A DNA stretch of 64,000 nucleotides, taken from the NCBI RefSeq assembly GCF_007559275.1, contig NZ_VMHK01000002.1, positions 310,001-374,000 of the forward strand. Reading direction: 5' to 3'. Under the pieces are notes generated by a model that was not told where the DNA came from, searched no databases, and was given only the letters and a program-made list of their open reading frames with translations. The translations under genes and the position numbers were made by a program. The first letter of the stretch is position 1; each line of letters starts with the position of its first letter. The DNA comes from Bifidobacterium apousia (GTDB lineage: Bacteria > Actinomycetota > Actinomycetes > Actinomycetales > Bifidobacteriaceae). Shown here one piece after another: positions 28,297 through 60,652 of the stretch.

Positions 28297-28309
28297 TTAT
28301 ATGTGTGGT

Positions 28310-28380: not shown

Positions 28381-28425
28381 TGTATGGGCCGGGGGCGGGG
28401 GGATTGATACGCCGCCCGGCCGCTC

Positions 28426-31400
28426 TTACTCGTGCGAAGCGTGTAGCAGTCGGTGTATTTCTTTTCGGTGGCGGCGGGATGCCAGCACCCCGCCCATGCC
28501 GGTCATGCCCGTGGCCAGGGCGAGCAGGATGCCCTCACCACCGGCCCTTGGGAGCACGCCCAGGGGGGTGTACGTGTAGGTCAGGGACTTGTCCGTCAGG
28601 GTGCTTCCTGCTCCGCCCATCGTGTAGTCCACGCTGACCCTGACCGGGCCCGGCTGATGAGCGGGCGTGGTTACGGTGACGCTGTTGCTGTTGCTGACAG
28701 GGTTCAGGCTCTTGGCTGGGCTGGTGTCAAACCTGACTGCGCTGATCACCGGCTGCAGGTTGAACGCTACCGGCACAGGAACAGTCGATTCCCTGGTGGT
28801 GCCGTCGCCAAGCCGCCCATAGTTGTTGTATCCCCATGCTTTGATGTTCCCATCCGTGTTGATGGCCAGTGAATGATGGTTTCCGGCGCTTATTTGTACG
28901 GCATTCAGCCAGGGGCCGGCCGAGTTCGTAGATTGTGAAGATGTGAAAACTTTCACGGGGTATGAATACTGAATGTACATGCCCCTGCCAAGCTGACCAT
29001 GATCGTCGTCTCCCCATGCCCAGGCGTTCCCGTCCTTGTCGAGGGCCAGCGAATGAAAGCCTCCGGCGCTGACCTGTGTGGCTTTCAATCCTTTGCTTGC
29101 GTCTGTGGGGCTGTTGGGGTCGCGTACGCGCACAGGAGCATACGAAGAGCTGGAGCTGTTGTTGCCGAGCTTACCAAACCCGTTGTTTCCCCAAGCATAG
29201 GCATATTCGTTGCTGCCCACAGCCAGCGAATAATAGTTTCCGGCGCTGACCTGTGTGGCTTTCAATCCTTTGCTTGCGTCTGTGGGGCTGTTGGGGTCGC
29301 GTACGCGCACAGGCACATACGAAGAGCTGGAGCTGTTGTTGCCGAGCTCACCATTGCCGTTGCTTCCCCATGCCCAAGCGTTCCCGTCCTTGTCGAGTGC
29401 CAGCGAATGATAATTTCCGGCGCTGACCTGTGTGGCTTTCAATCCTTTGCTTGCGTCTGTGGGGCTGTTGGGGTCGCGTACGCGCACAGGAGCATACGAA
29501 GGGCTGGAGCTGTTATTGCCGAGCTGGCCAGTGTTGTTTAATCCCCAGGCGTAGGCGTATCCGTCGCTGCCCACGGCCAGCGAATGATAGCCTCCGGCGC
29601 TGACCTGTGTGGCTTTCAATCCTTTGCTCGCGTCTGTGGGGCTGTTGGGGTCGCGTACGCGCACAGGCACATACGAAGAGCTGGAGCTGTTGTTGCCGAG
29701 CACACCATTGGGGTTGCTTCCCCAGGCGTACACGTATCCGTCACTGCCTAGGGCTAGCGAATGATATTGTCCGGCGCTGATCTGCACATAGGTGAAATCC
29801 TCTGGCAAGTCCGGATACGTCTTGCGGTCAGGCGTCTTCACTTTGACCGGCGTATACCGGTAGTAGGTGGTCGTCCCGTCGCCGAGCTGTCCATACGTGT
29901 TGTTTCCCCAGGCGTACGCGTCCCCGTCGCTGCCCACAGCTAAGGAAAAGCCGTACTCGTAGTTTTCTTTTGACCCGCTTATTTGATTGACCCGTATGCC
30001 TCGGCTGGTGTCTGGTGGGGTGATGGTGGTGGTTTCGTTGCCGAGCTGGCTGCCCTTGTCGGGGTTGATCCGCCATTGGTTGTTTTGCGTGTTGGGTGTC
30101 CAGTGGGCGGTGAGGGTGAGGTCTGTGGTGACGGGTTTGCTGAAGTCGTAGGCGATGCTGCCGGTGAACCATCCGTCGAACTGGTAGCCGTCGCGTGTTG
30201 GGTCGGGGGAGGGCCTCTGGACCCGGCCGTATGGGTAGGAGACCTGCTGGTCTGCTGGTGTGGGGGTTCCGCTGTCAGTGTTGAAGGTGACCGTGTGGGT
30301 GGTGTTTGGTTCCGTGTCTCTGACCAGCTGTTGGTCGACCGTGTAGTTGAGGCTTCTGGTGAAGGGCTGGCCGTCCTGCCTGCCGGTGATGAGGATGGCG
30401 GCTGGTCCGGGCTTGCGTGCGGGGATCGGCGTCTGCCATACGTCGCCGGTCTTGGTGAGTTTGAGCGGCTGGCTGTCCAGGCTGGCTGATTCCAGGGTGG
30501 GCGCGGTGTTGATGTTGAGTCTGGCTGGCTTCCCGGGTTTGCCTTGAGCGTCCAGGCTCCACGCGACTATGCTGCCCTGCCTGCCGATGGCGGTGATCCT
30601 GCTGCCCACGCTGACGGCTTGTATGTACTGTTTGTTCCCGTTGTCTGCGCGTACGGGCGTATCGCCGGGCTTCCACGTCCAAACGCGTCCTTCTGTGTCC
30701 GTGATCAACGCTTGGTCATTGTTAGCGATGGCTCGGCTGGTTTTCGCGCCGTCCGGCAGGCTGAGAGCTGTAGGGCTGGTGGTGCTGTCGGCCAGGTACC
30801 AGGCTTGCCCGTCCGCGTCCAGCAGGAGGAACCCTTGGTTGAGGGCTTGCGCTTGGATGATGCGCATGCCTAGGTTCTGTCTGACGCGTACGGGTTTGGC
30901 TTTTCCGGTGTTGTTCGCGTCCCAGGTCCAGGCTTGTCCGTTCGCGTCCACGATGAGGATCCGGCTGCCGAAGGCGAGGGCGGTGATGGCCTGTGCCTGT
31001 CCGGGCAGGACTGCTGCCGTTTGCTCTCCGGGCTTTGCAGTCGGATCCTGTGTGCCGGGCTGGCTGGCTTGGAAGGTGTGGACCTGTCCTTGCTGGTCCA
31101 CGGCTAGGAGTCGGTCATCGTTCAGGCTGACGCTGGTGAATTGGGTGTTCCGGCCAGTGTCGAGGATGGTGGGCGTGGCCTGTCTGCTGTCCCATGTGTA
31201 GAGGTGCTGGTCGGATCCTAATGCGGCCTGCGATTGGCTGCTGGTTGCGACTTGCAGATAGTGGAACCCGTCGGGAGCCTGGGTGGGGAAGGGGACCTGT
31301 TTTGGTGCACTGTCTTGCGCCCAGGTGTAGATGCGACCGTCGCCGGTCAGGCCCACGATTTGGTCTCTTGTGGCTTGGATGCTGGTGTAGTAGGGCTCCT

Positions 31401-32014
31401 GCTTGTCGGGCGGGTTGATGGTCAGTTGGGCGCCGGTGGAGGGCCCATGGTTCGGGCTCAGCGTCCAGTCTGCAGTTTTGGCCCATTTTGCAGTCAGGGT
31501 CATGTCTTGGAGGATGGGCGTCTGGAAGTCATAGGGCTGGTCGTCAAGCGTCCATCCCTCGAACCGGAAGCTTTCACGTGCAGGGTTGTGTTCTGGAGGG
31601 ATGACGAGAGTGCCGGTTTTCACGGTTGATTGTGTTGGCTTGTTTCCATTATTCGGATCGAAGCGCACCGTGTGCGTGACTTGATCATTCGTCTTGCCGG
31701 ATGGCTTGGCTGAAGCGGAATTCGTACTGCCGGTAGTAGCCGTCGGCGATGAGGGAGCAGACGGATCTGTTGTTTCGGGATTTAATGGTGATGCGGTTGT
31801 CAGTGGTGATGGGGTCGGAAGCGGAGTGTGTGTTGCGTTGCTGGGGAGAGTGCCGGAGGTTCCGTTAGCTACGCGAGGGGTCTGACGACCCCCCCCCCCC
31901 GGTGAGTACAGGAGCGTCCGCCGCGTTTGCGGACGCGACGCCCAAGCCTGCCAGCAGGCCCAGTAGGATGATCATCATCGCCAGCGCGCGACGCAGACGG
32001 GAAATCACATGCAT
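28426..32014 (-). CDS. P1: phase-variable double-propeller surface protein (OFF)
   Basis: Predicted wall-anchored adhesin-like protein of 1,195 residues when in frame. Order: signal peptide (MHVISRLRR..., hydrophobic to about residue 30), Gly4, Ser/Thr/Pro linker, InlB B-type repeat, seven divergent blades (YTW/VWTW cores), second InlB repeat, seven canonical RCC1 blades (AYAWG...QLG), a C-terminal beta domain, LPRAGG, membrane helix, Arg-rich tail. The coding-strand tract is 12 G, so translation from ATG 32014 yields 49 residues and stops at TAA; deleting one G gives an exact codon count and restores the full frame. AAGGGG lies upstream of the ATG. P1 and P2 form subfamily A. The ligand is unknown. 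Confidence 0.85.
29071..29705 (-). repeat. Four near-identical 177-bp tandem units in P1
   Basis: Cores starting at 29071, 29248, 29425 and 29602 recur exactly every 177 bp (59 codons) with few differences. They encode consecutive blades of the second propeller. In-frame gain or loss by recombination is possible. Confidence 0.85.
31889..31900 (-). repeat. Poly-G tract of P1, 12 bases (OFF)
   Basis: Twelve C on the plus strand. ACC-G12-TCG shifts the signal peptide into a frame ending at AGC TAA. 11 would be ON. Confidence 0.95.
31914..31936 (-). repeat. Inverted repeat beside the P1 tract
   Basis: GCGTCCGC (31914-31921) and GCGGACGC (31929-31936), perfect 8-bp stem, 13 bases from the tract. 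The P2 counterpart has GCATCCGC/GCGGATGC, a paired substitution. Confidence 0.8.
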
Positions 32015-32540: not shown

Positions 32541-35500
32541 TTACTCGTGTGAAGCATGTGACAGTTGGCGTGTTTCCTGCCGGTGGCGGCGGGATGCCAG
32601 GACGCCGCCCATGCCGGTCATGCCGGTGGCCAGGGCGAGCAGGATGCCTTCCCCTCCGGCCTTGGGGAGCATGCCTGCTGACAGGTACGTGTATCGGAGG
32701 GAGGTGTCGGGCGTTTGGGGTGCGCCGCCCAGCGTGTAGTCCACGCTGACGGTGACCGTGCCCGGCTGGTGTGCGGGCGTGAGCACGCTGACGCTGCTGC
32801 CATCGCCGCGCGTGAGCCCTGATGCGGGGGTCTGGTCGAATCTGACGCCGGTGATCACCAGAGCCAGGTTGAACGACACCGGCACAGGAACCGACTTGGC
32901 GTTTGTGCTGCCGTCGCCGAGCCGACCATAGTTGTTGTTTCCCCATGCCCAGGCGTTCCCGTCGCTGCCCACGGCCAGCGAATGAGCGTATCCGGCGCTG
33001 ACTTGCACGGCTTGCAATCCTTGGCTCTTGTCGGTGGGGCTGGCGGGGTCGCGCACGCGCGCAGGAGCAGGATTAAAAGTGGAGCCGCTGCTGTTGTTGC
33101 CGAGCTGGCTCCAGTAGTTGTGTCCCCAGGCGTAGGCGTTGCCGTCGCTGCCCACGGCCAGCGAATGCCAGTATCCGGCGCTGACCTGCACGTAGGTGAA
33201 ATCCTTTGGCAGGTCCGGGTACGTGTTGCGGTCGGGCGTCCTCACCCTGACCGGCGCATACCGGTAGCTGGCACTCGTCCCGTCGCCGAGCTGGCCATAG
33301 CCGTTGGCTCCCCAGGCGTAAACGTTGCCGTCGCTGCCCACGACCAGAGAATGATCCAATCCGGCGCTGACCTGCAGGTAGGTGAAATCCGCTGGCAGAT
33401 CCGGGTACGTGCTGCGGTCGGGCGTCTTCACCCTGACCGGCGCATACCGGTCGATGCTTGTCCCGTCGCCGAGCCGGCCACTGCTGTTGTATCCCCAGGC
33501 GTAAACGTTGCCGTCGCTGCCCACGGCCAGGGAATGATAGGTTCCGGCGCTGACCTGCAGGTAGGTGAAGTCCGCTGGCAGGTCCGGGTACGTGCTGCGG
33601 TCGGGCGTCTTCACCCTGACCGGCGCATTCCGGCTGCTGGTTGTCCCGTCGCCGAGCTGGTCATAGTTGTTGTCTCCCCAGGCGTAAACATTACCGTCGC
33701 TGCCCAGGGCCAGGGAATGTTGGTTTCCGGCGCTGGCCTGCAGGTAGGTGAAGTCCGCTGGCAGGTCCGGGTACGTGTTGCGGTCGGGCGTCTTCACCCT
33801 GACCGGCGCATACTGGTAGCCGCCGGTCGTCCCGTCGCCGAGCTGGCCATCGCTGTTTGATCCCCAGGCGTAGACGTTCCCGTCGCTGCCCAGGGCCAGG
33901 GAATGAGAGGTTCCGGCGCTGGCCTGCAGGTAGGTGAAGTCCGCTGGCAGGTCCGGGTACGTGTTGCGGTCGGGCGTCCTCACCCTGACCGGCGCATGCT
34001 TGTCGTCTCTCGTCCCGTCGCCGAGCTGGCCATAGTAGTTGTTTCCCCAGGCGTAGGCGTTGCCGTCGCTGCCCACCGCCAAGGAAAAACCATAGCTGGA
34101 GCCTTTTGATCCGCTGATCTGGCTGAACCGGATGCCCCGGCTGGCGCTGTCGGGCGGGGTGATGGTGGCGGGTTCCCTGCCCAGCTGGCTGCCCTTATCA
34201 GGGCTGATGCTCCACCTGCTGTTCCTGCCTGCGGGCGTCCAGTGGGCGGCCAGGGTCAGGTCCTTGTCGACGGGCCTGCTGAAATCATAGGCGACATCCC
34301 CGGTGAACCAGCCGTCGAACAGGAAGCCCTCCCGCGCAGGGTCGGGGGAGGGGCGTTTCACCCTCCCATACGGGGAGGGGACAGTCTGGTCCGCTGGTTT
34401 CGGGTTTCCGCCGCCCGTGTCGAAGCGGATCGTGAACGCGGATCCTGGCTCCGCAGCTCGTGCCAGCGGCTGGTCGACCGTGTACGCAAGGCTCCTGGCG
34501 AAAGGCTGCCCGTCCTGCCTGCCCGTGATAAGGATGACGGCTCGTCCCGGATTGCGGGCGGGCATGTCCGCCTGCCAGGCGTTGTTCTTTGCAGTGAGGT
34601 TGAGCGGCTGGCCGTCCAGTCTGGCTGATTCCAAGGTGGGCGCCTGTGTGGTGCCTAGCCTGTCGGGTTTGCCGGGCTGGCCCTGCTTATCCAGGCTCCA
34701 CGCGAACATGCCGCCCTGCCTGCTGATGGCGGTGATCCTGCTGCCGGTGCTTGTGGCCTGCATGTAGGCTTGGTTCCTGCTGTCCGCGCGTTTGGGGGTC
34801 TTGCCGGGCTTCCAGGCCCAGACATGGCCGTCGGTGCCGACGATCATGGCCTGAGCCTTGTTGGCGGCGGTCGAGCTGGCCTGCGCGCCGTCCGGCAGGC
34901 TGAGCTGGATCATGGCGGCAGTGCCGTCTGGCAGGTACCGGGCCTGCCCCTTTGCATCCAAGAGCAGGAACCCCTGGTTGAGGGCCTGCGCCTGGACGGT
35001 GCGCATGCCCGGATCCTGCTTGACGCGTTCGGGCTTGGCTTTCCCGAGGTTGCTCATCTCCCAGGTCCAGGCTAGCCCGTCAGCGTCCACGATGAGCGCC
35101 TGGCTGGCGGAGGCCGCAGCGAGGACGGCCAGCGCCTTTCCGGGCAGGCTGATGGCGGCCTGCTGTATAAGTTCCGGGTTCTGGCTGTCGGCCTTGCTGG
35201 CCTGATAGGCGTGGACCCGGCCCTGCCGGTCCACCGCCAGCAGGAGGTCATTGTCCGTGCTGATGCTGGTGAACCCGGCATCCTTGCCGGTGTCGAGGAG
35301 CGTAGGTGCTGTTTGTCCGCTGTTCCAGGTGTATATCCGCTGGTCGGATCCTAACGCGGCCTGCCGGCGGCTGCCGGCTGCAACCTGCAGGTAGCGGAAC
35401 CCGTCGGGGGCCTGGGCGGGGGAGGGAACTGGTTTGGGTGTGCTGTCCTGCGTCCAGGTGTAGATCCGCCCGTCGCCGGCCAGGCCGACTATCTGGTTTC

Positions 35501-36140
35501 CTGCGGCGTGGATGCTGGCGAATTGAGGCTCCTGCAGGTTGGGCGGGCTGATGGTCAGCCGGGCGCCGGTGGCGGGACCATGGTCAGGGTTCAGCGTCCA
35601 GTCCGTGGTCTTCGACCACTGGGCTTTCAGGGTGGTGTCCTGGAGGATGGGGGTCTGCAAGTCGAAGGGCTGGCCGTCGTGTGTCCACCCGTCGAACCGG
35701 AAGCCCTCACGTTGAGGGTTCTGCTGCGGGGCAGCGGCGAGCGTGCCGGTTTTCGCGCTCGTTTGTGTGGGTTTGCTGCCGTTGTTCGGGTCGAAACGCA
35801 CTATGTGCGAAGCCTGATCAGCTGTCTTCTCTGCTGGTCTGGCAGGTGCGGCGTCTGTGCTGCCGGGTGTTCCCGTCGTCGATGACGGGGTTCCCGGATT
35901 TGCTGTTGGGCTTAACGGTGTGGCGGCTTGTATCGGCGAGGGCGAGGATAGCGGGGTGTCTGGTGCGCTGCTGGGGGGAATGCCGGGGGTTTGCTCAGCT
36001 ACGCGAGGGGTCTGACGACCCCCCCCCCCGGTGAGGATAGGAGCATCCGCCTGGGCGGATGCGACGCCCAGGCCCGCAAGCATTCCCAGCAGGATGGTCG
36101 TCATCGCCAAGGTGCGACGCAGACGGGAAACCAGATGCAT
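32541..36140 (-). CDS. P2: double-propeller surface protein (ON)
   Basis: The only tract-bearing member whose frame is intact: 11 G link the signal peptide to the body, giving 1,199 residues. Signal peptide to about residue 31 (VASA-QADA), Gly4 at 38-41, then RQTPRVA and a Pro/Ser/Thr linker. An InlB-type repeat (VRFDPNNGS ... FRFDGWT) precedes seven divergent blades, a second InlB repeat (FLFDGWFTGDVAYDF) and seven RCC1 blades (VYAWG...QLG). It ends with LPKAGG near residue 1160, a hydrophobic helix and RRHR. It should be secreted and sortase-anchored; binding to a host, partner or phage ligand is inferred from the family folds. ATG 36140 lies 11 bases from GAAGGGG. Confidence 0.88.
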   Translation of the reverse strand: MHLVSRLRRTLAMTTILLGMLAGLGVASAQADAPILTGGGGRQTPRVAEQTPGIPPSSAPDTPLSSPSPIQAATPLSPTANPGTPSSTTGTPGSTDAAPARPAEKTADQASHIVRFDPNNGSKPTQTSAKTGTLAAAPQQNPQREGFRFDGWTHDGQPFDLQTPILQDTTLKAQWSKTTDWTLNPDHGPATGARLTISPPNLQEPQFASIHAAGNQIVGLAGDGRIYTWTQDSTPKPVPSPAQAPDGFRYLQVAAGSRRQAALGSDQRIYTWNSGQTAPTLLDTGKDAGFTSISTDNDLLLAVDRQGRVHAYQASKADSQNPELIQQAAISLPGKALAVLAAASASQALIVDADGLAWTWEMSNLGKAKPERVKQDPGMRTVQAQALNQGFLLLDAKGQARYLPDGTAAMIQLSLPDGAQASSTAANKAQAMIVGTDGHVWAWKPGKTPKRADSRNQAYMQATSTGSRITAISRQGGMFAWSLDKQGQPGKPDRLGTTQAPTLESARLDGQPLNLTAKNNAWQADMPARNPGRAVILITGRQDGQPFARSLAYTVDQPLARAAEPGSAFTIRFDTGGGNPKPADQTVPSPYGRVKRPSPDPAREGFLFDGWFTGDVAYDFSRPVDKDLTLAAHWTPAGRNSRWSISPDKGSQLGREPATITPPDSASRGIRFSQISGSKGSSYGFSLAVGSDGNAYAWGNNYYGQLGDGTRDDKHAPVRVRTPDRNTYPDLPADFTYLQASAGTSHSLALGSDGNVYAWGSNSDGQLGDGTTGGYQYAPVRVKTPDRNTYPDLPADFTYLQASAGNQHSLALGSDGNVYAWGDNNYDQLGDGTTSSRNAPVRVKTPDRSTYPDLPADFTYLQVSAGTYHSLAVGSDGNVYAWGYNSSGRLGDGTSIDRYAPVRVKTPDRSTYPDLPADFTYLQVSAGLDHSLVVGSDGNVYAWGANGYGQLGDGTSASYRYAPVRVRTPDRNTYPDLPKDFTYVQVSAGYWHSLAVGSDGNAYAWGHNYWSQLGNNSSGSTFNPAPARVRDPASPTDKSQGLQAVQVSAGYAHSLAVGSDGNAWAWGNNNYGRLGDGSTNAKSVPVPVSFNLALVITGVRFDQTPASGLTRGDGSSVSVLTPAHQPGTVTVSVDYTLGGAPQTPDTSLRYTYLSAGMLPKAGGEGILLALATGMTGMGGVLASRRHRQETRQLSHASHE
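33192..33950 (-). repeat. Five near-identical 183-186-bp units in P2
   Basis: The core GTAGGTGAA recurs at 33192, 33378, 33561, 33744 and 33930 within long near-identical blocks. Periods of 183 or 186 bp keep the frame (61-62 codons) and encode blades of the second propeller. Confidence 0.8.
36019..36029 (-). repeat. Poly-G tract of P2, 11 bases (ON)
   Basis: Eleven C on the plus strand. ACC-G11-T reads GGG GGG GGG GGT CGT CAG, joining signal peptide and body. Confidence 0.95.
36043..36062 (-). repeat. Inverted repeat beside the P2 tract
   Basis: GCATCCGC (36043-36050) and GCGGATGC (36055-36062), perfect 8-bp stem, 4-base loop, 13 bases from the tract. Confidence 0.8.
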
Positions 36141-36704: not shown

Positions 36705-39700
36705 TTATTGTTGCCGGCTGAGAGTTTCCAGCCTGTGGCGCCTGGCTGCTGCGGCGCATGCGAAGGCGATCAGTCCTGCGATGAGCAGGGGAAGCAGGCC
36801 GCCTCCGCCGGCCCTGGGCAGTACGCTGATGGAGTTGTACCGATACGTGTTGCTGGTGTCGGGGGTCTGGGCTGCTCCGTTTAGTCTCCATTCGATGGTG
36901 ACGGTTGACGTACCGGGCATGTGTGCCGGCGTGGTCACCGTCCAGGTGCCGTTGGAGTTCTTGGTCAGGTCGGAGGCTTCCACATTGTCGAACTGGACGT
37001 GTGTGGGGATGCCAGGCCTGGGGAAGGTGTCCTTGGCCGGGCTGGCGGCCTGAGTATCGGTGGTGTCGCGGCCGAGCTGGCCCTTGGCGTTGTCTCCCCA
37101 GCTGTAGAGGTTGCCGTCGGATCCCAGGGCCAGGCAGTACGATGCTCCTGCGCTGGCCTGAGTGAAGGTGATCCCTGCCGGCGTATCCACCTTCTTGGGC
37201 CTGTCTGACGAGGTTTTGCCGCTGTCTCCCCAGATGTAGAGGCTGCCGTCGGATCCCAAGGCGATGGAACGCGCGCCTCCTGTGCTGGCCTGGGTGAAGG
37301 TGACCCCTGCCGGGGTGTCGGCCTTGCCGGGCTTGTCTGCGGGGGTGCTGCTGGTGTCGCGGCCCAGGCGTCCGTTGGCGGCATTGCCCCAGGTGTAGAG
37401 GCTGCCGTCGTCGCTTGCTGCCACGGAGTGGCTTGCGCCTGCGCTGGCCTGGGTGAAGGTGATGCCTGCCGGGGTGTCGGCTTTGCCGGGTTTGTCTGCG
37501 GGGGTGCTGCTGGTGCTGCGCCCGAGCTCGCCGTGGGTGTTGTCTCCCCAGGTGTAGACGTCGCCTTGCGTGTCCACAGCCACCGTGTGGCCCCAGCCTG
37601 CACTGACACTGGTGAAGGTGACATCTGCCGGGGTGTCGGCTTTGCCGGGCTTGTCTGCGGGTGTGTTGCTGGTGACGGTACGGCCCAGCTGGCCAGCGCT
37701 GTTGTCTCCCCAGGTGTAGATGTTGCCATCCGAGCTTAGGGATACGACATGGGATCCGCCTGCGCTTGCCTGGACGAAGGTGATGCCTGCCGGGGTATCC
37801 ACCTTGTGGGGCCTGTTGGCTGGGGTGTTGCTGGTGATGGTACGGCCCAGCTGCCCAGCGCTGTTGTCTCCCCATGTGTAAAGGCTGCCATCCGAGGCCA
37901 GGGCCACGGAAAATCCGTAGCCTGCGCTGACATGGACGAAGGTGACGCCTGCAGGAGCCTCCGCCTTGCTTGGATGACTGTCCTGCTTGTCAGCGGTGTC
38001 GCGGCCCAACTGACCGTGGGTGTTGTCTCCCCAGGTGTAGAGGCTGCCGTCGGAGCCCACGGCTGCGGAATGGAGGTCTCCTCCGTCAGCCTGGCTGATG
38101 CGGATGCCGCGTGCTGGCGGTGGAGTCAGCGTGATGGTCTGGCCGCCTGACTCGGGCCCGTTGTCCTTGTCGAGCTTCCACTTGTTGCTGTCGACACTGC
38201 TCCAGTGGGCGGTTAGGGTCACCTTGTCGGTGACCGGTCTGCTGAAGTCATAGGCTGTGTCGCCGATGAACCAGCCGTCGAACAAATAGCCCCTCTTGGT
38301 CGGATCCCTATCGGGGCGTTTCATTGGGGTGCCCTCAGTCACGGACTGCCAGTAGAACCCAATGCCTTGGGCGGTGTCGAAGGTGGGATGGTAGGTTTCC
38401 AGGTACCTATAGGGCAGGTGCGCGTCCGGTCGTTCGCCGTTCATCCTCCAGGTAATGACTGCATCCACCTTGCCGTGTTCGTGTTGGGGCGTGGTGACGC
38501 TCCAGGTGCCGTCCGGGTTGGCGTCGAGGTTGGTGCCGGGTGTCCCGCCGAAACTCACATTATCGGGCTTGGGATCCTCGGGGAATGTGACCATGCCGGG
38601 GCTGCTGTCGTACTTGCCGCTTGTGGGGCGTCCAAGTTCGCCGTACTGGTTGTATCCCCAGCTGTAGAGGTTGCCGTCCGAGCCAATGGCCAGGGAGTGG
38701 GAATAGCCGGCGCTGATCTGGGTGAATTGTGCGATGCCCGTCGGCATGATCACCTTACCGGGTTTGGTGTCATATTTGGCTGATCCGGTGTCGCGACCCA
38801 GCTGGCCGCAATCGTTGTTTCCCCAGCTGTAGAGGTTGCCGTCCGAGCCCAAGGCCAGTGTATGCCTGCGTTCTGTACTGATCTGGGTGAATTTCTTGAC
38901 GCCTGCCGGCATAGCCACCTTGCGTGGTCTGCGGTCTTGTGTTGCTGATCCGGTGTTTCGTCCCAGCTGACCGTATTCGTTGTATCCCCAGCTATAGAGG
39001 TTGCCGTCCGAGCCTATGGCCAAGGATGTCCAGTCTCCAGTCGTGATCCACGTGTATTTCTTGACACCTAGCGGGGTGGAGACCTTGCGTGGTGCGGGGT
39101 CTTTTTCTGCCAAACCGGTGTCGCGTCCAAGTTCGTAGTAAGCATTGTTTCCCCAGCTGTACAGGTCACCGTCCGAGTCCAGGGCCATGGAGTAGAAAGT
39201 CCCTGCGCTGATCTGGGTGATTTTCGCGACACCTGCCGGCATCGACACCTTGCCTGGCTTGGCATCATATGTGGCTGAACCCGTGTCGCGTCCCAGTTCG
39301 CCGTAGCTGTTGTTTCCCCAGCTGTAGAGGTTGCCATCTGAGCCCAATGCCAAGGAATGCCAGGCTCCTACGCAGGTCTGGGTGAAGCGGACGCCGGCCG
39401 GAGGAGTCACCAGCCCCGGCTGATTGTCTGTCTTAGAAGGGGGAGTGGTGTCGCTGACGATTTCGCGTCCCAGTTGGCCTTGTTTGTTGTATCCCCAGCT
39501 GTAGAGGTTGCCGTCCGATCCCAGGGCCAAGGAATGAGAGGAACCTCCGCTGACCTGGGTGAAGCGTACGCCGGCCGGCGGGTTGACCAGGCTCGGTGTG
39601 CGTTTTTCTTCTTCAGAGGTTTCCAACTTGTAGTTGTTGTCTCCCCACCTGTAGAGGTTGCCGTCCGAGGCTATGGCCTGGGAGCCTTCTTCTTTTGCTG

Positions 39701-40220
39701 GGACGATGTGGCTGAAGCGTATGTCTGGTGTGGTGGGCGGGGTCAGGGTGATCCTGGTGTATTCTGTGGCTTTCCCTGAGGTGGGGGAGAGGCTCCAGGC
39801 GCTGGTGCCCTTGGTCCAGTGGGCGGTCAGGGTGAGGTCTGTGGTGACGGGCTGAGTGAAGTCGTAGGCCACCTTGGAGTCGCCCTTGGCATCTTTGGTG
39901 AACCAGCCGTCGAACAGGTAGCCGTCCCTGGTCGGGTCTTGCGCGGGACGGCTGGCCTGGGCGCCTTCGGCAATGGTCTGCGGGTCGACACTGCTGCCGT
40001 CGGCGCTGTCGAAGACGACCTGGTATGAAGTTGAACCTGGCTGAGCTCGGGCGGTGGTTGTGCTGACGGATGCGTCTGTTTGCTGGGCCGGGCTGATCGG
40101 ATTTGCGATGGCATCGGCTGCAGTGAGCCCGCCGAAGATCATGCTGGCTGGAAGAATGACGATAACCTTCAAAAGGTCTACAACAATGGCTGACCGGGAA
40201 GACGCATCCGGATGGCACAT
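36705..40220 (-). CDS. P3: double-propeller surface protein without phase tract
   Basis: 1,171 residues with the family architecture but no poly-G and no RQTPRVA segment, so it should be expressed constitutively. The N-terminus MCHPDASSR precedes a hydrophobic stretch ending near GGLTAADA. InlB repeat 1 is YQVVFDSADGSS ... YLFDGWF. Seven blades with LYSWG cores follow, then InlB repeat 2, and seven blades with LYTWG cores. The tail is LPRAGGGG, a hydrophobic helix and ARRHR. ATG 40220 lies 12 bases after AAAGGGG; the longer frame upstream includes that ribosome site and was rejected. Near-identical blades with repeated APAGVTFT-like linkers indicate internal duplication. Confidence 0.85.
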   Translation of the reverse strand: MCHPDASSRSAIVVDLLKVIVILPASMIFGGLTAADAIANPISPAQQTDASVSTTTARAQPGSTSYQVVFDSADGSSVDPQTIAEGAQASRPAQDPTRDGYLFDGWFTKDAKGDSKVAYDFTQPVTTDLTLTAHWTKGTSAWSLSPTSGKATEYTRITLTPPTTPDIRFSHIVPAKEEGSQAIASDGNLYRWGDNNYKLETSEEEKRTPSLVNPPAGVRFTQVSGGSSHSLALGSDGNLYSWGYNKQGQLGREIVSDTTPPSKTDNQPGLVTPPAGVRFTQTCVGAWHSLALGSDGNLYSWGNNSYGELGRDTGSATYDAKPGKVSMPAGVAKITQISAGTFYSMALDSDGDLYSWGNNAYYELGRDTGLAEKDPAPRKVSTPLGVKKYTWITTGDWTSLAIGSDGNLYSWGYNEYGQLGRNTGSATQDRRPRKVAMPAGVKKFTQISTERRHTLALGSDGNLYSWGNNDCGQLGRDTGSAKYDTKPGKVIMPTGIAQFTQISAGYSHSLAIGSDGNLYSWGYNQYGELGRPTSGKYDSSPGMVTFPEDPKPDNVSFGGTPGTNLDANPDGTWSVTTPQHEHGKVDAVITWRMNGERPDAHLPYRYLETYHPTFDTAQGIGFYWQSVTEGTPMKRPDRDPTKRGYLFDGWFIGDTAYDFSRPVTDKVTLTAHWSSVDSNKWKLDKDNGPESGGQTITLTPPPARGIRISQADGGDLHSAAVGSDGSLYTWGDNTHGQLGRDTADKQDSHPSKAEAPAGVTFVHVSAGYGFSVALASDGSLYTWGDNSAGQLGRTITSNTPANRPHKVDTPAGITFVQASAGGSHVVSLSSDGNIYTWGDNSAGQLGRTVTSNTPADKPGKADTPADVTFTSVSAGWGHTVAVDTQGDVYTWGDNTHGELGRSTSSTPADKPGKADTPAGITFTQASAGASHSVAASDDGSLYTWGNAANGRLGRDTSSTPADKPGKADTPAGVTFTQASTGGARSIALGSDGSLYIWGDSGKTSSDRPKKVDTPAGITFTQASAGASYCLALGSDGNLYSWGDNAKGQLGRDTTDTQAASPAKDTFPRPGIPTHVQFDNVEASDLTKNSNGTWTVTTPAHMPGTSTVTIEWRLNGAAQTPDTSNTYRYNSISVLPRAGGGGLLPLLIAGLIAFACAAAARRHRLETLSRQQ

Positions 40221-40294
40221 GATCGCTACAAACCCCTTTCCCAAGGTAAGGCAATCCGATGATGAAAACCCCAAGTTTTTTCATCGGTCGCATG

Positions 40295-40517: not shown

Positions 40518-43500
40518 TTACTCGAGCGAAGTGAATTCATGCCTGTGGCGTCCGGCTGCCAGAGCACCGGCGGCGGCAAGCAGGCCGGAGGCGAGCAGAA
40601 GGAGTACCCCCGTGTTGCCTGTGAGGGGGAGGATGCCTTTGAAGGTGTAGCTGAGGTGGGTCGGGGTCTGGTTGGCGGTGCCCAGGGACCAGTCCACGAT
40701 CACATCAGACAATCCCGGATTGTGGGCTGGCGTGGTCAGGGTGACCGACCCGTCCGCGTTCTGCTGCAGGCTGTTGGCTGCTGTTTGGTCGAACCTGACG
40801 CCGGTAATCAGCGGCGGCGGATATAGCGCCACCAGGGTCGGCGTAATGATCTTCGTATCGCTGTTGCTGCCGGTGCCGAGTTGCCCACGGTAGTTGTATC
40901 CCCAGCCGTAGCTCTTGCCGTCCTGACCGATGGCCATGGAACAAGCCGATCCTGCGCTGATTCGTGCGACCGCGAACCCCTTGCCTGCGTTGTCCTGGCC
41001 CGCTGGGGGTGACACTTGTGAGGGGACGAGCAGCTCGGAGGTGCCCTGGTTGCTGCCCAACTGATCAAAGGTGTTTTCTCCCCATCCCCAGGCTGTGCCG
41101 CTCTGGTCGATAGCCAGCGAATATGTGGCTCCGGCGATGATTTGGGCGGCCTGGAATCCCTGGCTGGCATCGGCAGGGTTTTTTACCTGCGTGGGTGTGG
41201 ACCGGTCGGTCAGCGTGCCATCGCCGATCTGGCCATCCGCGTTCATTCCCCATGCCCAGGCTGTGCCGTCCTGACCGATGGCCAGTGCGTGGACTTCACC
41301 GCTGCTGATCATCCTGGCCTTAAAGGTCTTGCTGGCGTTCTTGGGATCGGGCACGGGAGCTGGGTCGGCAGCATATGCGGTGCTGTATTTTCCTGTGCTT
41401 TGGCCGTTGCCGAGCTGTCCGTGGTTGTTGTATCCCCAGGTGTATACGTTGCCGTCGGCGTCCAGGGCCATGAGGAAGCTGTATCTTGCGCTTACCTGGA
41501 CCGCCTTCAGCCCATTGTCGGAGCTGCTCGGATCCTTGGCCAGGGCCGGCGTCAGTTTGGGCGCGCTATAGGTGTCCGGGCCGTAGGTTTCGCTGCCCCA
41601 GACGTAGACGCGCCCATTCAGGTCGATGGCTGCCGAGTCGGTGAATCCGGCGGTCACCTGGGTGGCCTTGAAGGGTTGTCCGTCTGGGCCCTTGACGGGC
41701 TGTGGCTTGGAGTGGTCTTGCCTGCTGCCGTCGCCAAGCTGGCCATATTGATTGTGTCCCCAGCTGTAGACGGTCTGGTCGGAGCCGATGGCCAGCACGT
41801 GGGTTCCGCCTGCGGCGACCTGCGTGTAGGTGAACCCGGTAGCTGCGCCGTCAGGCAGGGGGACCTTGGTCGGCGCGTACTGTGTGGCCGTCGTACTCGG
41901 ATCCTGGCCCAGCTGCCCGTAGTCGTTGCCGCCCCAGGCGTAGGCATTCCCATCGCTGGTCACCCCTATAGAAAAACCGGCAAAATTATCGCTGGCGCTT
42001 ATCTGGTTGAAGCGGATGCCCCGGCTGGTTTTGGGCGGGGTGATGGTCACATGCTGGCCGCCCTGGGCATCACCATTATTCGGGCTGATTGCCCAGCTGC
42101 CGATGTCTACAGGGCTCCAATGGGCGACCAGGGTGATGCTGCTGGTGACGGGCTGGCTGAAGTCATAAGCCACCTTGGATTCGCCTTTTGAGTCCTTGAG
42201 GAACCAGCCGTCGAACAGGAAGCCGTCTTTGGTTGGGTCTGCGATCGGGCGTGTGGCCTGCCTGCCTTCGGTGACGGACTGGGGTCCGGGCATGCCCGAG
42301 GGTGCTGTAGGGGAGTCACTGTCGGAAGAGAAAGTGACATGGTAGGCGTTCACGTATTGGTAGGTCAGGTGGGTGTCGGGCTGCTGGCCGTTCATGCCCC
42401 AGATGATGGTGACATCGGTCTTGCCTGCTGCATGCTGGGGCGTGGTGACGCTCCAGGTGCCGTTTGACTGGGCGTTGAGGTTGGTGCCGGGCGTCCCGCC
42501 GAAGCTGACGCTGACGGGTCTGGGATCCTCGGGGAATGTGACTGTGCCGGGGTGGGCGTCAGAATGACCAGTGGTCGTGCGTCCCAACTGGCTTCGGCTG
42601 TTGTCTCCCCAGCTGTAGAGGTTGCCGTCCGAGCCTAGGATCAGGGAGGAGGTATTCTCTGCGTTGATCTGGATGCAGCTGATGCCTGCCGGCAGGGATA
42701 CTTTGCCCGGTGTGGCATTTCTCAAGCTGCTGGCGTCGCGTCCCAGCTGGCCGAATTTGTTGCTTCCCCAGCTGTAGAGGTTGCCGTCCGAGCCTACGGC
42801 CAGGGTGTGTTGGTTTCCTGCGCCGAACTGGGTGAATCTCGTGACGCCTGTGGGCAGCGTCACTTTGCCTGGATCGATGTTTTGTGTTGGCGTGTCGGTA
42901 TCTCGTCCCATCTGGCCGTAGCTGTTGTAACCCCAGCTGTAGAGGTTGCCGTCTGAGCCCATGGCCAGAGAACACCATCCCTGTGCGGCAATCGCGGTGT
43001 ATTTCGTAACGCCTGTCGGCAGGATCACTTTGTTCGGCAGGGTTCCTGGCTGTTCGCTGTTGGTGTTGCGTCCGAGTTCGCCCTGAGTGTTGTCTCCCCA
43101 GCTGTAAATGTTGCCGTCCGAGCCCAGAGCCAAGGAATAGAAGGTTCCCCCGCTGATCTGGGTGCAGGTGATGCCTGTCGGCATTGACACTCTGCCTGGC
43201 GTGGCGTCGTAGGTCGCTGATCCCGTGTCGCGTCCCAACTGGCCTCGGCTGTTGTCTCCCCAGCTGTAGAGGTTGCCGTCCGAGCCGATGGCCAGGGATT
43301 GCGAGTATCCGGCGGTGAACTGGGTGAAGTGGACGCCGGTCGGCGGGGTGACCAGGCCCGGTCTGTCAGCTGGCGTGCTGGTGGTGCTGCGTCCCAGCTG
43401 CCCGTTGTCGTTTAGTCCCCAGCTGTAAAGGTTGCCGTCCGAGCCCATGGCCAGGGAAAGGCTCATTCCTGCGCTGGTCTGGGTGAAGTGGACGCCGGTC

Positions 43501-44219
43501 GGCGGGGTGACCAGGCCTGGGGTGCCTTCTGGCGCCTTGCTCGGTGCGGTGGCTGGTATCTCATTGGTGTCGCGTCCCAGACTTGCTTTGTTTTGTCCCC
43601 AGCTGTAGAGGTTGCCGTCCGAGCCCATGGCCAAGGTATGCCATAGACCCGAGCTGATGTGGCTGAATCGTACGCCGGGTTTGGCGGGTGGGACCAAGGT
43701 GATCTTGTCGCCTCCGGCGGCTGACCCGGAGGTGGGGGAGAGGCTCCAGGCACTGGTTCCCTTGGTCCAGTGGGCGGTCAGGGTGAGGTCTGCAGTGACG
43801 GGTTGGGTGAAGTCGTAGGCAAGATTGCCGGTGAACCAGCCGTCGAACAGGTAGCCGTCCCGGGTCGGGTCCTTGGCGGGCCGGCTGGCCAGTGCGCCGT
43901 CATCGACGTTTTGAGGGTCGATGCTGCTGCCGTCGGCGCTGTCGAAGGTGACGGTGTGCCTTGTTGAGCGTGCTTGGGGGCGACTGTCAGGTGTTTGATC
44001 GTGTTCGGGTATGGTGTTCAGTGGCGAGGGTGTTGGTGTCAATGGGGACTGGGGTGTCGTCGGCGTGGCCTGCAGCGTTGGCTGGCTTGTGTCGGTGTCG
44101 GTGTTGGTGTCAGTGTCGGCTGTGGCGAGGCTGCCCATGATCAGACTTGCGATCAGGATGATGGCAAGCAGAAGGCTCACGGCAATGCATGGCTGGGCAG
44201 AAGCATCCCTATGGTGCAT
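40518..44219 (-). CDS. P4: double-propeller surface protein without phase tract, LPLTG anchor
   Basis: 1,233 residues. Signal peptide MHHRDASAQPC... with a hydrophobic core ending near SLATAD, then a Thr/Asp/Pro linker encoded partly by a hexanucleotide repeat. InlB repeat (VTFDSADGSS ... YLFDGWFTGNLAYDF), seven LYSWG blades, second InlB repeat, seven blades (AYAWG, VYSWG, VYVWG...), C-terminal beta domain, then LPLTG, the only canonical LPxTG motif among the nine, a helix and AAGRHRHE. There is no homopolymer, so expression should be constant. GGAAAGGGG precedes ATG 44219. The second propeller is closely related to those of P6, P7 and P8, while the first differs. Confidence 0.85.
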   Translation of the reverse strand: MHHRDASAQPCIAVSLLLAIILIASLIMGSLATADTDTNTDTDTSQPTLQATPTTPQSPLTPTPSPLNTIPEHDQTPDSRPQARSTRHTVTFDSADGSSIDPQNVDDGALASRPAKDPTRDGYLFDGWFTGNLAYDFTQPVTADLTLTAHWTKGTSAWSLSPTSGSAAGGDKITLVPPAKPGVRFSHISSGLWHTLAMGSDGNLYSWGQNKASLGRDTNEIPATAPSKAPEGTPGLVTPPTGVHFTQTSAGMSLSLAMGSDGNLYSWGLNDNGQLGRSTTSTPADRPGLVTPPTGVHFTQFTAGYSQSLAIGSDGNLYSWGDNSRGQLGRDTGSATYDATPGRVSMPTGITCTQISGGTFYSLALGSDGNIYSWGDNTQGELGRNTNSEQPGTLPNKVILPTGVTKYTAIAAQGWCSLAMGSDGNLYSWGYNSYGQMGRDTDTPTQNIDPGKVTLPTGVTRFTQFGAGNQHTLAVGSDGNLYSWGSNKFGQLGRDASSLRNATPGKVSLPAGISCIQINAENTSSLILGSDGNLYSWGDNSRSQLGRTTTGHSDAHPGTVTFPEDPRPVSVSFGGTPGTNLNAQSNGTWSVTTPQHAAGKTDVTIIWGMNGQQPDTHLTYQYVNAYHVTFSSDSDSPTAPSGMPGPQSVTEGRQATRPIADPTKDGFLFDGWFLKDSKGESKVAYDFSQPVTSSITLVAHWSPVDIGSWAISPNNGDAQGGQHVTITPPKTSRGIRFNQISASDNFAGFSIGVTSDGNAYAWGGNDYGQLGQDPSTTATQYAPTKVPLPDGAATGFTYTQVAAGGTHVLAIGSDQTVYSWGHNQYGQLGDGSRQDHSKPQPVKGPDGQPFKATQVTAGFTDSAAIDLNGRVYVWGSETYGPDTYSAPKLTPALAKDPSSSDNGLKAVQVSARYSFLMALDADGNVYTWGYNNHGQLGNGQSTGKYSTAYAADPAPVPDPKNASKTFKARMISSGEVHALAIGQDGTAWAWGMNADGQIGDGTLTDRSTPTQVKNPADASQGFQAAQIIAGATYSLAIDQSGTAWGWGENTFDQLGSNQGTSELLVPSQVSPPAGQDNAGKGFAVARISAGSACSMAIGQDGKSYGWGYNYRGQLGTGSNSDTKIITPTLVALYPPPLITGVRFDQTAANSLQQNADGSVTLTTPAHNPGLSDVIVDWSLGTANQTPTHLSYTFKGILPLTGNTGVLLLLASGLLAAAGALAAGRHRHEFTSLE
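44089..44119 (-). repeat. Hexanucleotide repeat in P4 linker
   Basis: About five imperfect copies of GTGTCG (plus strand), encoding alternating Thr-Asp. It sits where other members carry the poly-G, but copy changes here stay in frame. Confidence 0.65.
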
Positions 44220-44375
44220 GATGGCTGCGAACCCCTTTCCCCAAACAGGTGGCTCGATGATGAAAATCCCCAAGTCGCTTCACGAGACGTGTGCCGGGGA
44301 CCATCCCGACAGCTGTATTGCAGTCTATCACGCGCGGACGGGCAAGAGTAGGAGCAACACCAGGGCGAATAAGAA

Positions 44376-48077: not shown

Positions 48078-48089
48078 CCCCCCCCCCCC
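48078..48089 (-). repeat. Poly-G tract of P5, 12 bases (OFF)
   Basis: Twelve C on the plus strand. The downstream block differs from the other copies (TCGACCGACCGCTCGGGTAG), yet both wrong frames still meet TAA or TAG. Confidence 0.95.
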
Positions 48090-48098
48090 GGTGCCATT

Positions 48099-48132
48099 TA
48101 GAGCAGTCTGCGCGCTCGCGCTGGCTGCTCTA
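48099..48132 (-). repeat. Inverted repeat beside the P5 tract
   Basis: TAGAGCAG (48099-48106) and CTGCTCTA (48125-48132), perfect 8-bp stem with an inner GCGCG/CGCGC. Its sequence is unrelated to the P1/P2 stems but its position is equivalent. Confidence 0.75.
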
Positions 48133-48257
48133 GACTCGTTCGTGACTGGCTCGGCAGTAGCAGCAAGGCCAGTCAGAAGGCTGGTAGGCAGGATAATCGC
48201 GAGTAGAAGGCCAGCAACAGTGGATGACCGAATCTGCTTTTTTCGACGATGACGCAT

Positions 48258-51600: not shown

Positions 51601-52419
51601 GCATCGTATGAGGCCGATCCGATGTTGCGGCCCAGCTGTCCGTTCTGGTTGCTGCCCCAGCTGTAGAGGTTGCCGTCCGAGCCTATGGCCAGAGAGTGGC
51701 TGTTGCCTGCTTGGATTTGGCTGAATCTGATGTCTTGCCTTGTAGGCGGCGTAATAGTGACCTTGTTATTGCCGGTTTCGGGCCCGTGATCAGGGCTGAT
51801 GCTCCAGGTTTCAGAACCCTTGGTCCACCTGGCCGTGAGGGTCAGATTGCCGGTGACTGGCTGGTTGAAGTCATAGGCGACCGGGGTGTCGCCGATGAAC
51901 CATCCGTCAAAGAGGTAGCCGTCCTTGGTCGGGTCGGCCGGTCGTATTGCGCGCTCGCCGTCTGTTGTTGTCTGAGTTGTATCGGTGCCTTGGGGATTGC
52001 TGAAAGTGACGGTGTATTGGGTGTTCGAACGTGTTTGTAAGAGGCTATGGGCGGAGCTGCCTTCGGTGCTTGTTTTCTCTGGCGTGGAATGCAGAGGGGA
52101 AGAAGTGGCTAGTGGAGAGGATGTGGTCAGCGGAGATGGTGAAACTAGTGGAGATTCGGGTGTTGACGGTGTGGCCTGTGATGTTGTCTTGCTAGAGGAA
52201 ATGCCGGAATTTTGCTTAGCTACGCGAGGGGTCTGACGACCCCCCCCCCCCGGTGCCTCCTGTTGTGGTGGGCGCGCTCGCGCCGGACACAGCAGGTTCG
52301 CTGGCCTCAGTGCTGGCATCGGCGCTGGAGCCGACAAGCAGGCCTAGAGGCAGGATGACAGCCAGCAGTGTGCTGAGAGCCATAGCCGGTCCGATAGACG
52401 TGTGCTGATGCTGACGCAT
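48603..52419 (-). CDS. P6: phase-variable double-propeller surface protein (OFF)
   Basis: 1,271 residues when in frame. Signal peptide MRQHQHTS... with core TLLAVILPLGLLVG, Gly4, RQTPRVAKQ, Ser/Thr/Pro linker, InlB repeat (YTVTFSNPQG ... YLFDGWFIGDT), seven LYSWG-type blades, a second InlB repeat, seven blades including the shortened third one (VYSWGSETTT), then LPNAGSSG, a helix and GRHQRE. Tract length 12 stops translation after 67 residues. Deleting one base gives a whole number of codons. With 12 G an alternative frame upstream is open from an ATG at 52337, but that product would have no signal peptide. Promoter, leader, tract and hairpin are nearly identical to those of P7. Confidence 0.85.
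52240..52251 (-). repeat. Poly-G tract of P6, 12 bases (OFF)
   Basis: Twelve C on the plus strand. The signal frame ends at AGC TAA just downstream. Confidence 0.95.
52259..52296 (-). repeat. Inverted repeat beside the P6 tract
   Basis: Arms 52259-52276 and 52279-52296 match at 14 of 18 positions around GGGCGCG-CT-CGCGCC; two of the other positions are G/T. It lies 7 bases from the tract. Confidence 0.75.
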
Positions 52420-55700: not shown

Positions 55701-56497
55701 TAGTCACCATCCCTGGCCGGTTATCGGCCAGTATGGCGAGTTTTCGACCCAGCTGTCCATTTCTGTTGTAACCCCAAGTGTACAGGTTGCCGTCGGAGCC
55801 AAGGGCCAGAGAGTGGTTCTTTCCTGCACTGACTTGGCTGAATCGTATGCCTCTTGTGGCAGGCGGCGCAAGCGTGACATCGGTGTTGCCGGAAGTGGGG
55901 CCATTATTCGGATTAATGCTCCAGTCGCCTGATCCCTTTGTCCAGTGAGCTTTGAGAGTCAGATTGTTGGTGACGGGCTGGCTGAAGTCGTAGGCGATGG
56001 GCGTATCGCCGTTGAACCAGCCGTCAAAGAGGTAGCCGTCCTTGGTGGGATCGTCGGGCCGTTTTGCCTGTCTCCCGTCTGTGACGCTTTGCTGTATATC
56101 GGCGCCCTGCAGGTTTGTGAAGGTGACGGTGTATTGCGTGGATGAGCGAGCCAGCTTCTGGCTGTCAGGACTTTTATGCTTGTCGGTTCCGTCGGGTTCG
56201 ACGTGCGTGGGGTTCAGGGGAGAGGGTGTGGATAAGGGAGATGCTGGTGTTGCCAGCGATGTTGCCTTGCTAGAGGAAATACCGGAATTTTGCTTAGCTA
56301 CGCGAGGGGTCTGACGACCCCCCCCCCCCGGTGCCTCCTGCTGGGGCAGGCGCGCTCGCGCCGGCCACAACAGGATCGCTGGCGGTCGTGTCGGCCGCAG
56401 CGAGGCCACCAGCGATCAGACTTGCCGGCAGGATGACGGCGAGCAGAAGGCTGACGGCCATGACCGGACGACTGTGCGTGTTCGTATGCTGACGCAT
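52717..56497 (-). CDS. P7: phase-variable double-propeller surface protein (OFF)
   Basis: 1,259 residues when in frame. Signal peptide MRQHTNTHSRPV... with core VSLLLAVILPASLIAGG, Gly4, RQTPRVAKQ, linker, InlB repeat (YTVTFTNLQG ... YLFDGWFNGDT), seven blades, second InlB repeat (RFDGWFLKDAKGG), seven blades with the short third one (VYTWGSENNN), LPHAGSSG, helix, GRHRRE. The 12-G tract ends translation after 67 residues; one base less restores the frame exactly. Its second propeller is close to those of P4, P6 and P8, whereas the first is distinct, so the N-terminal propeller is the more variable module. GGGAAGGGG precedes the start. Confidence 0.85.
56318..56329 (-). repeat. Poly-G tract of P7, 12 bases (OFF)
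   Basis: Twelve C on the plus strand, flanked as in P6. Confidence 0.95.
56337..56374 (-). repeat. Inverted repeat beside the P7 tract
   Basis: Arms 56337-56354 and 56357-56374 match at 15 of 18 positions. The outer arms differ from P6 (CCTGCTGGGG versus CCTGTTGTGG) while pairing is mostly kept. Confidence 0.75.
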
Positions 56498-59800: not shown

Positions 59801-60652
59801 CTCCTCCAGCCACCGCTTGAACCCAGGTAAAGCCGGAGGATGCTCCCTTGGGCCTTGTGACCAGATTTGGCTTGCCGCTTGGTGTTTCATTGGTAACAGC
59901 GCGCCCTAGCTGCCCGCTGCTGTTGCTTCCCCAGCTGTAGAGGTTACCGTCTGAGGCAAGGGCGAGGGAATGAGCCCCTCCTGCACTGATTTGAGTGAAG
60001 TGGATGCTGTTTGCTGACGGCGGGGTGATGGTGATTTTGGTGCTTCCGGCTGTTGGCCCATTATCAGGGTTAATAGACCATGTGCTTGATCCTCTGGTCC
60101 ATTGGGAAAGCTGCTTGGTCCAATGCGCATTAAGGATGATGCTGCTGGTGACTGGCTGATTGAAATCGTAGGCAAGGTGTGCGCCATCCTTGAACCAGCC
60201 TTCGAAAACGTAGCCGTTCCTGGTCGGATCAGCGGGTCGCTCCGCCAGTTCACCAGCTTTGACGTTTTGCCTCATGCTGGTGTGCTGGTTGGGGTCGTTG
60301 AAGATGACAGTGTACTGAGAGTCCGGGGTCTGATCGGTTTTAGTGGATTCTGTCGGCGTGGGGTTTAGGGAAGATGGTGTGGATAAGGGGGATTGTGGTG
60401 TACTTGGCGCTGATGTTGGAGTCGCGCTACTGGGGAAAGTGCCGGAATTTTGCTCAGCTACGCGAGGGGTCTGACGACCCCCCCCCCCCCGGTGCCTTCT
60501 AGTGTCGCCGGCGCGCTGGCGACATTAGACTCGTTGGTGGCCGTGTCTGCTGCGGCGAATCCACAGATAGCCAGGCTGGCTGGCAGGATAACGGCCAACA
60601 GTAGGCTGACAGCCCTTATTGGACGGCTTGGCATGTTCGTATGCTGACGCAT
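56838..60652 (-). CDS. P8: phase-variable double-propeller surface protein (OFF, 13 G)
   Basis: 1,270 residues when in frame. Signal peptide MRQHTNMPSRPI... with core VSLLLAVILPASLAICG, Gly4, RQTPRVAEQ, linker, InlB repeat (VIFNDPNQHTS ... YVFEGWFKDG), seven blades of which the fourth and fifth are divergent (LYGWGWNGLDLPGW; LYSSVGCNAHDYC), second InlB repeat, seven blades with a short third one (VYTWGCEHTS), LPHAGSSG, helix, GRHRWE. The tract has 13 G, so the signal frame runs into GCG TAG after 64 residues. It is the only copy in the second OFF register and needs loss of two G or gain of one. Confidence 0.85.
60478..60490 (-). repeat. Poly-G tract of P8, 13 bases (OFF)
   Basis: Thirteen C on the plus strand. 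Reading GTC GTC AGA CCC CTC GCG TAG terminates at once. Loss of two bases or gain of one would be ON. Confidence 0.95.
60499..60528 (-). repeat. Inverted repeat beside the P8 tract
   Basis: CTAGTGTCGCC (60499-60509) and GGCGACATTAG (60518-60528) match at 10 of 11 positions with one G/T, 8 bases from the tract. Confidence 0.8.

Follow-up and report, generated by a model that had tools for sequence, protein, structure and literature searches.

A tract-linked stem kept by paired substitutions in one leader type of RCC1 surface-protein genes of Bifidobacterium

Introduction

Do the inverted repeats that stand before the G tracts of tandem surface-protein genes in Bifidobacterium apousia form a structure that is conserved without conserved sequence, and what might such a structure do beside a tract whose length sets the reading frame? 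The window, by which we mean the whole stretch of 64,000 nucleotides that was analysed, comes from a genome of 2.06 Mb and carries tandem genes on its minus strand from 28 to 60 kb. The six genes that were scanned (P1 to P6) encode surface proteins with RCC1 and Listeria-Bacteroides repeats, the protein family described from bee bifidobacteria as RCC1-repeat LPxTG proteins, which are encoded in tandem arrays and combine Listeria-Bacteroides repeat and RCC1 domains (PMC3447821, PMC4449606), with 7 to 24 RCC1-type genes per bee bifidobacterium (PMC4449606). The main texts of these two papers do not contain the terms "phase vari-", "homopolymer" or "frameshift", and a full-text literature search joining Bifidobacterium, phase variation and RCC1 returned no paper.

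G-tract switching was described in B. breve UCC2003, where the sortase-pilus genes bbr_0113 and bbr_1889 carry an intragenic switch of 9 to 12 G (PMC9187656). As in the genes studied here, an early G tract in a surface-protein gene sets ON or OFF through the frame, and the productive event is the loss of one G, but the genes there are pilus genes and here they encode RCC1 proteins. The main text of PMC9187656 uses none of the words hairpin, inverted repeat and stem-loop. G-tract phase switches in bifidobacteria (PMC9187656) and the RCC1 proteins of bee bifidobacteria are already known; among the matches listed in our searches, no title or opening of an abstract speaks of a stem that covaries beside a phase-variable homopolymer.

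Results

Six G tracts and five leader types

The plus strand of the window holds six runs of 11 to 13 C, which are G tracts in the coding sense.

31889..31900, minus strand: G12 tract of P1, OFF
36019..36029, minus strand: G11 tract of P2, ON, with an open frame at 32541-36143
48078..48089, minus strand: G12 tract of P5, for which the ON length would be 11
52240..52251, minus strand: G12 tract of P6
56318..56329, minus strand: G12 tract of P7
60478..60490, minus strand: G13 tract of P8

Two RCC1 surface-protein genes between them have no tract and served as controls.

36705..40274, minus strand: P3, tractless RCC1 surface protein (L184)
40518..44273, minus strand: P4, tractless RCC1 surface protein (L146)

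The initial annotation had placed an inverted repeat 7 to 13 nt before each of the six tracts in the coding sense and none in P3 and P4, and we found both to be so: the repeat is present in all six, and at the place matching the tract leader the best inverted-repeat score in P3 and P4 is 4.0 (p=0.88 and 0.46).

Relatives were compared among asteroides-clade bifidobacteria, a clade which we take to be honeybee-associated, for example B. asteroides ESL0199 (G007), B. mellis Bin7N (G019), B. mizhiense S053-2 (G020), B. polysaccharolyticum W8117 (G022) and B. choladohabitans B14384H11 (G011). Searching for at least eight G followed by TCGTCAGACCCC, with at most two mismatches, detected the element in 11 of 27 Bifidobacterium genomes, and a looser pattern returned the identical 11. 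The 83 leaders gathered, with 13 more, make 96, which were sorted by the sequence adjacent to the tract into types A to E. Type A (P1, P2) has 55 leaders, 48 with a tract of at least 11 and seven without; type B (P5 to P8) is represented by 27, spread over 10 honeybee-clade Bifidobacterium genomes; types C, D and E have 5, 5 and 4 loci. In the assembly of the window (G000), the contigs C7, C8 and C9 end within about 130 bases of the tracts L018, L021 and L024, so the assembly breaks at RCC1 arrays and may lack some copies. A search of viral contigs for relatives of one neighbouring protein, and of plasmids for relatives of window positions 25000-32000, found none.

In types A and B the frame from the signal-peptide ATG is open (ON) at 11 G (or 14, or 17), and at most loci the other two frames meet stops 17 and 21 nt past the tract, so that tract length sets the frame, as expected of slipped-strand phase-variable genes with a homopolymer in the coding region. 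Lengths vary among homologues from 11 to 15 in type B and from 11 to 17 in type A. The commonest length in type B is 12 G (22 of 27 leaders). One G over the ON length, such that the loss of one G is needed, is likewise found in 22/27 tracts of type B, against 2/9 in the hairpin-less classes D and E taken together (Fisher p=0.0025), a count in which L055 was corrected manually, its in-frame ATG lying 162 nt upstream, and L059, which has leader deletions, was scored as not needing the loss; L062 and L070 are ON, and P8 and L026 need a gain of one. The frame survey behind these numbers contains a spurious upstream ATG in several rows (e.g. L055, L059, L068, L085), and L021 and L024 are cut short. 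Twelve G is also the commonest length in type A, in 32 of the 48 tract-bearing copies, and type A lengths go by genome: 12 in 11/11 copies of G020, 11 in 5/9 of G018, and 12, 13, 15 and 17 in G006.

Coding accounts for the type A repeat

Since the repeats lie in coding sequence, each was compared with 300 recodings of its own peptide, in which synonymous codons were drawn by window codon usage; leaders with fewer than 60 nt upstream (L024), tracts shorter than 9 and identical regions were omitted. The type A copies of the window are the following.

31914..31936, minus strand: type A inverted repeat of P1, coding for ASANAADA at the end of the signal peptide (recoding p=0.29)
36043..36062, minus strand: type A inverted repeat of P2 (recoding p=0.14)

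Ala/Ser/Asp/Gly-rich codons at a signal-peptide cleavage site could be self-complementary by chance, given that ASA and ADA codons can be mutual reverse complements. For type A this explanation holds: none of 32 distinct sequences, one of which (L135, with an interrupted tract) was read in the wrong frame, exceeds its recodings at p<0.05, the mean z is -0.37, and there is no covariation at pair 3. The change between P1 and P2, proposed as a compensated base-pair swap, turned out to consist of two silent third-position differences, GCG/GCA for Ala and GAC/GAT for Asp. Among the 48 tract-bearing type A relatives the swapped pair occurs as A-C in 28, A-U in 11, G-C in 7, G-U in 1 and A-G in 1, and since an unpaired A·C stands in 28 of 48, the swap is no evidence for structure. 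Of the two marks of a structured cis-acting element, pairing beyond coding and covariation, type A shows neither, and the recoding null together with the pair counts among the 48 relatives rules out its stem as a covarying element.

One hint is left even so: five of the seven type A leaders without an intact tract are changed at a stem position that is never altered in the 48 tract-bearing copies, four of them in the 3' arm and one in the 5' arm.

The type B hairpin is kept by paired substitutions

The four remaining repeats of the window belong to type B, whose stem comprises 11 bp plus a 5-bp inner stem.

48097..48134, minus strand: type B hairpin of P5, arms at 48097-48107 and 48124-48134, 7 nt upstream of the tract in the coding sense
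52259..52296, minus strand: type B hairpin of P6, with an imperfect outer stem and an intact inner GGCGC/GCGCC
56337..56374, minus strand: type B hairpin of P7, 9 Watson-Crick pairs and 1 GU of 11 (recoding p=0.007)
60498..60529, minus strand: type B hairpin of P8, with a shorter loop and 10/11 pairs (recoding p=0.003)

The P5 hairpin has 9 of 11 Watson-Crick pairs in arms unlike those of P6 to P8, and none of its 300 recodings was as good; the P6 hairpin keeps 8 of 11 outer pairs and is not outstanding (recoding p=0.42). Copy by copy, P5, P7 and P8 thus stand out from their recodings, and P1, P2 and P6 do not. Across type B, 20 of 25 distinct sequences exceed the recodings of their own peptide at p<0.05, and amino acids change jointly on both arms (Ala and Ala in L046, Val and Thr in L060), so a chance property of the codons is unlikely for type B by this test, and as an explanation of the hairpin we hold it to be very improbable. 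One of three distinct type C sequences reaches p<0.05 in the same test.

Importantly, type B pairs covary. In an alignment of the 27 homologues built from sequence alone, 88.2% of the stem cells are paired, and slid registers reach at most 61%. Double-change cells number 47 against a shuffle mean of 14.7, and the covariation score is 0.472 against 0.202 in shuffles, neither value being attained in 500 shuffles. A weaker measure, pairs changed on both sides, gives 8 of 11 against 5.7 expected and was matched by 10 of 500 shuffles, and the pair-type count shows no excess (15 against 14.7; 292/500). Pair 32-61 is seen as GC, CG, UA and AU, and among twelve distinct arm pairs with 10 or 11 Watson-Crick pairs each, up to 12 of 22 positions differ. 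When whole arms were swapped among type B sequences, the observed pairing was reached in 0 of 2000 trials, with the same result when only 14 arms at least 3 apart were used and when the P5 clade was left out. With P5 to P8 alone, 8% of such trials attained the observed pairing, so the window's own four copies are insufficient to prove covariation. Moreover, a tree-aware null, in which columns evolved independently on a tree of the flanks, gave a mean of 0.499 and a maximum of 0.660 in 1000 runs against an observed 0.879, one gap in P8 having been moved for this test; in its list of events parsimony ties were broken by alphabet, so ancestral A·C states carry no weight. The compensatory excess of a structured cis-acting element is therefore found in type B over shuffles, over slid registers and over the tree-aware null. 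Furthermore, RNA folding that included the tract and the downstream sequence left 8 or more of the 11 stem pairs intact in 23 of the 27.

The six repeats of the window are accordingly two different things, type A and type B. Conserved structure without conserved sequence describes the leader type of the four copies P5 to P8 and not P1 and P2; likewise, the excess of paired substitutions expected in a larger alignment is large for the P5 to P8 type and nil for the P1/P2 type, which includes the repeat at 31914-31936.

Covariation could arise without selection for the stem if DNA polymerase switched template between the arms and corrected the quasipalindrome, a process reported to create and maintain hairpins (PMC8794818). 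The comparison of L138/L139 with L142 resembles a copied arm, since two neighbouring changes in the 3' arm each restore a pair. On the other hand, stepwise intermediates are extant, which argues for point mutation and selection: L142 has C-A at pair 30-63, between P5 and L138, and L033, L051, L065 and L071 have G-U at pair 34-59, between G-C and the A-U of L026. Since 36 of 297 type B cells (12%) are unpaired and most tractless homologues are stemless as well, we consider such neutral upkeep improbable.

Mismatched cells in type B comprise 22 A-C, 6 G-U and 14 other. The preponderance of A-C over G-U in the coding sense (22:6 in type B; 28:1 at one pair in type A) corresponds to G-T wobble on the template strand. 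An RNA stem should show G-U above A-C at changed pairs, which was seen in neither type B nor type A, and as G-U is not preferred, the wobble lends no support to RNA over DNA. A search of Rfam with window positions 31000-61500 (E<=1) gave one match, RF02570 at 50118-50190, which at 26.2 bits falls short of its gathering score of 112; no known RNA family thus matches the hairpin at gathering score.

The stem goes with the tract

A stem beyond coding is present in 22 of the 27 tract-bearing type B leaders, compared with 3 of 30 tractless homologues with a similar signal peptide. The median stem score is 12.0 in type B and 4.65 in the tractless set (Mann-Whitney p=5e-10, a value that is too small because the 30 loci include many orthologues and are not independent). 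The tractless set consists of 30 of the 48 loci L146-L193, from which five were left out as tract-bearing (L155, L163-L166) and 13 more because the leader was unrecognised or unrelated (L149, L156, L159-L162, L169-L172, L174, L182, L183). The distance from the stem base to the first G is 7 nt in 25 of the 27 type B leaders, and 6 and 8 in the other two. In the type B leader, then, paired substitutions maintain a stem whose presence follows that of the tract, and we infer that this stem is selected for acting on the tract.

The stem sits at the end of the signal-peptide region, where it might slow the ribosome for the handling of the signal peptide, or otherwise control translation, independently of the tract. 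Against such a role, 27 of 30 tractless homologues with a similar signal peptide show no stem beyond coding, and we regard it as scarcely probable.

Outside the window the rule of a hairpin at every G tract, as first proposed, does not hold: the tract-bearing leaders of class D (5 loci) and class E (4 loci) have no hairpin beyond coding, with none of their 3 and 2 distinct sequences reaching p<0.05 in the recoding test. Among 47 other G tracts, taken from five genomes only (G000, G003, G004, G005, G006; 48 loci, L212 having dropped out) and including the RCC1-like leader L206, whose type A/C stem has p=0.08, an inverted repeat at p<0.05 against dinucleotide shuffles was found upstream in 4 and downstream in 4. 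G tracts as such therefore do not bring palindromes, and a general hairpin rule for them is ruled out.

The tract was further claimed to sit between two stems. The second one is indeed present.

31877..31892, minus strand: second stem GGGGTC-GTCA-GACCCC of P1, overlapping the tract end, probably coding

It is nearly unchanged in types A to D and differs in the P5 clade and type E. Because it persists in the tractless copies L066, L067, L079 and L095, its presence gives no evidence of a tract-linked function; we dropped it from the element, coding being enough to explain it.

Several observations concern other tracts. Two loci, L017 (G000:C7 near 596534) and L219 (G006:C1 near 618240), carry a second tract of G14/G18 with a stem ending 7 nt before it; the one in L017 lies about 470 nt upstream of the RCC1 tract and its stem reads CCGTCCAG...CTGGACGG. 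A strong inverted repeat follows these second tracts, which stand outside the five leader types. In L175 (G022:C5:711660), a relative of L061, the tract is no longer a homopolymer (...NNERGNRQTSRV) and most of the stem is still visible, perhaps a recent tract loss. The 1.9-Mb genome G002:C1 has 47 runs of at least 11 G, mostly T-G11+. Below 1.0 Mb the minus strand carries 26 of 28 of them, and above 1.07 Mb all 19 are on the plus strand, a distribution that looks as though it were polarised by replichore. Many runs of at least 11 G were also counted in G017 (47) and G026 (84).

Discussion

How might a stem 7 nt from a G run act on it? We hypothesise, tentatively, that an RNA hairpin acts on the reading of the type B run by polymerase or ribosome, such that one G fewer is read. 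The hairpin would fold in the nascent or translated mRNA right behind the machine that reads the run. Its base lies 19 nt from the last G of G12, which would be just beyond the footprint of RNA polymerase (a 9-10 bp hybrid plus the exit channel) or of the ribosome, and the folded stem could block backward sliding, so that the run would be read one G short. The product would be transcripts minus one G, or a +1 ribosomal shift. Since the commonest allele, G12, is the ON frame plus one G, such recoding may let alleles with an OFF sequence be expressed in a leaky, tunable way, and ordinary replication slippage would set the DNA state underneath.

We favour this recoding because of the covariation in type B, its stems beyond coding, their linkage to the tract and the fixed 7-nt spacer, because the ON+1 length prevails in type B and not in D and E, and because precedents exist for both machines. 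In an insertion sequence of Roseiflexus, a nascent-RNA stem-loop beside a slippery run leads to transcripts lacking one base (reviewed in PMC5009743); there too the stem lies 5' of the run, and a one-base-short transcript would also be the outcome here. The run there is T5C5, with the stem directly adjacent and the effect shown by experiment, whereas here the run is G11-13, the spacer is 7 nt and the case is known from sequence. An upstream hairpin likewise stimulates +1 frameshifting in yeast, as confirmed in a 70S system (PMC6321510), and lies, as here, upstream of the shift site, +1 being the direction that G12 would need; the shift sites that the abstract of that paper names do not include a G run.

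Several points count against recoding. An RNA stem should favour G-U, which is not favoured; the Roseiflexus stem abuts its slippery run, and here it is 7 nt off; classes D and E carry the tract without the stem; and two of five covariation measures are weaker (both-side changes and pair types). Moreover, length 12 peaks in type A as well, whose stem is within coding expectation, and this peak, together with the genome-dependent lengths, means that mutation or assembly may set the lengths.

P6 and P7 carry a Shine-Dalgarno-like AGGAGG (window positions 52256-52261 and 56334-56339) that ends 4 nt short of the G tract. Shine-Dalgarno-like sequences stimulate ribosomal frameshifting.

The hairpin could instead form in single-stranded DNA at the fork and influence how often, or in which direction, the tract slips during replication, tuning the rate of ON/OFF switching. 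Replication slippage is the reported switch in the B. breve pili, where the productive event is also a one-G loss (PMC9187656), the stem goes with the tract, and the A-C excess, which on the template strand is G-T, may point to DNA or to the opposite strand; this excess, however, comes from few independent changes, partly at the edge pair 38-55. Against it, the other G tracts of the five genomes have stems upstream no more often than downstream, and classes D and E are stemless as well, so tracts exist and vary in length without one. We judge action on the DNA to be rather unlikely, and rank recoding first, replication slippage second and neutral template switching third.

Taken together with the frame, recoding may make the type B leader a two-layer switch, a picture that we offer with somewhat more reserve than the action of the hairpin itself: the tract would stand by default one G above ON, and a selected, sequence-free hairpin would make a fraction of the reads drop a G. 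If this is true, the strength of the stem would determine the level at which the "OFF" alleles in this large family of surface proteins are expressed, so that a digital phase switch would have an analogue dial. Phase switches of the homopolymer kind are usually regarded as no more than the run itself; a stem tied to the tract and maintained by compensatory change would imply that the reading or copying of the run is under evolutionary tuning too. The natural series of stems would allow testing if slippage during replication, transcription or translation is set by structure beside a homopolymer, and the RCC1 proteins of bee bifidobacteria would join the repertoires of phase-variable surface proteins.
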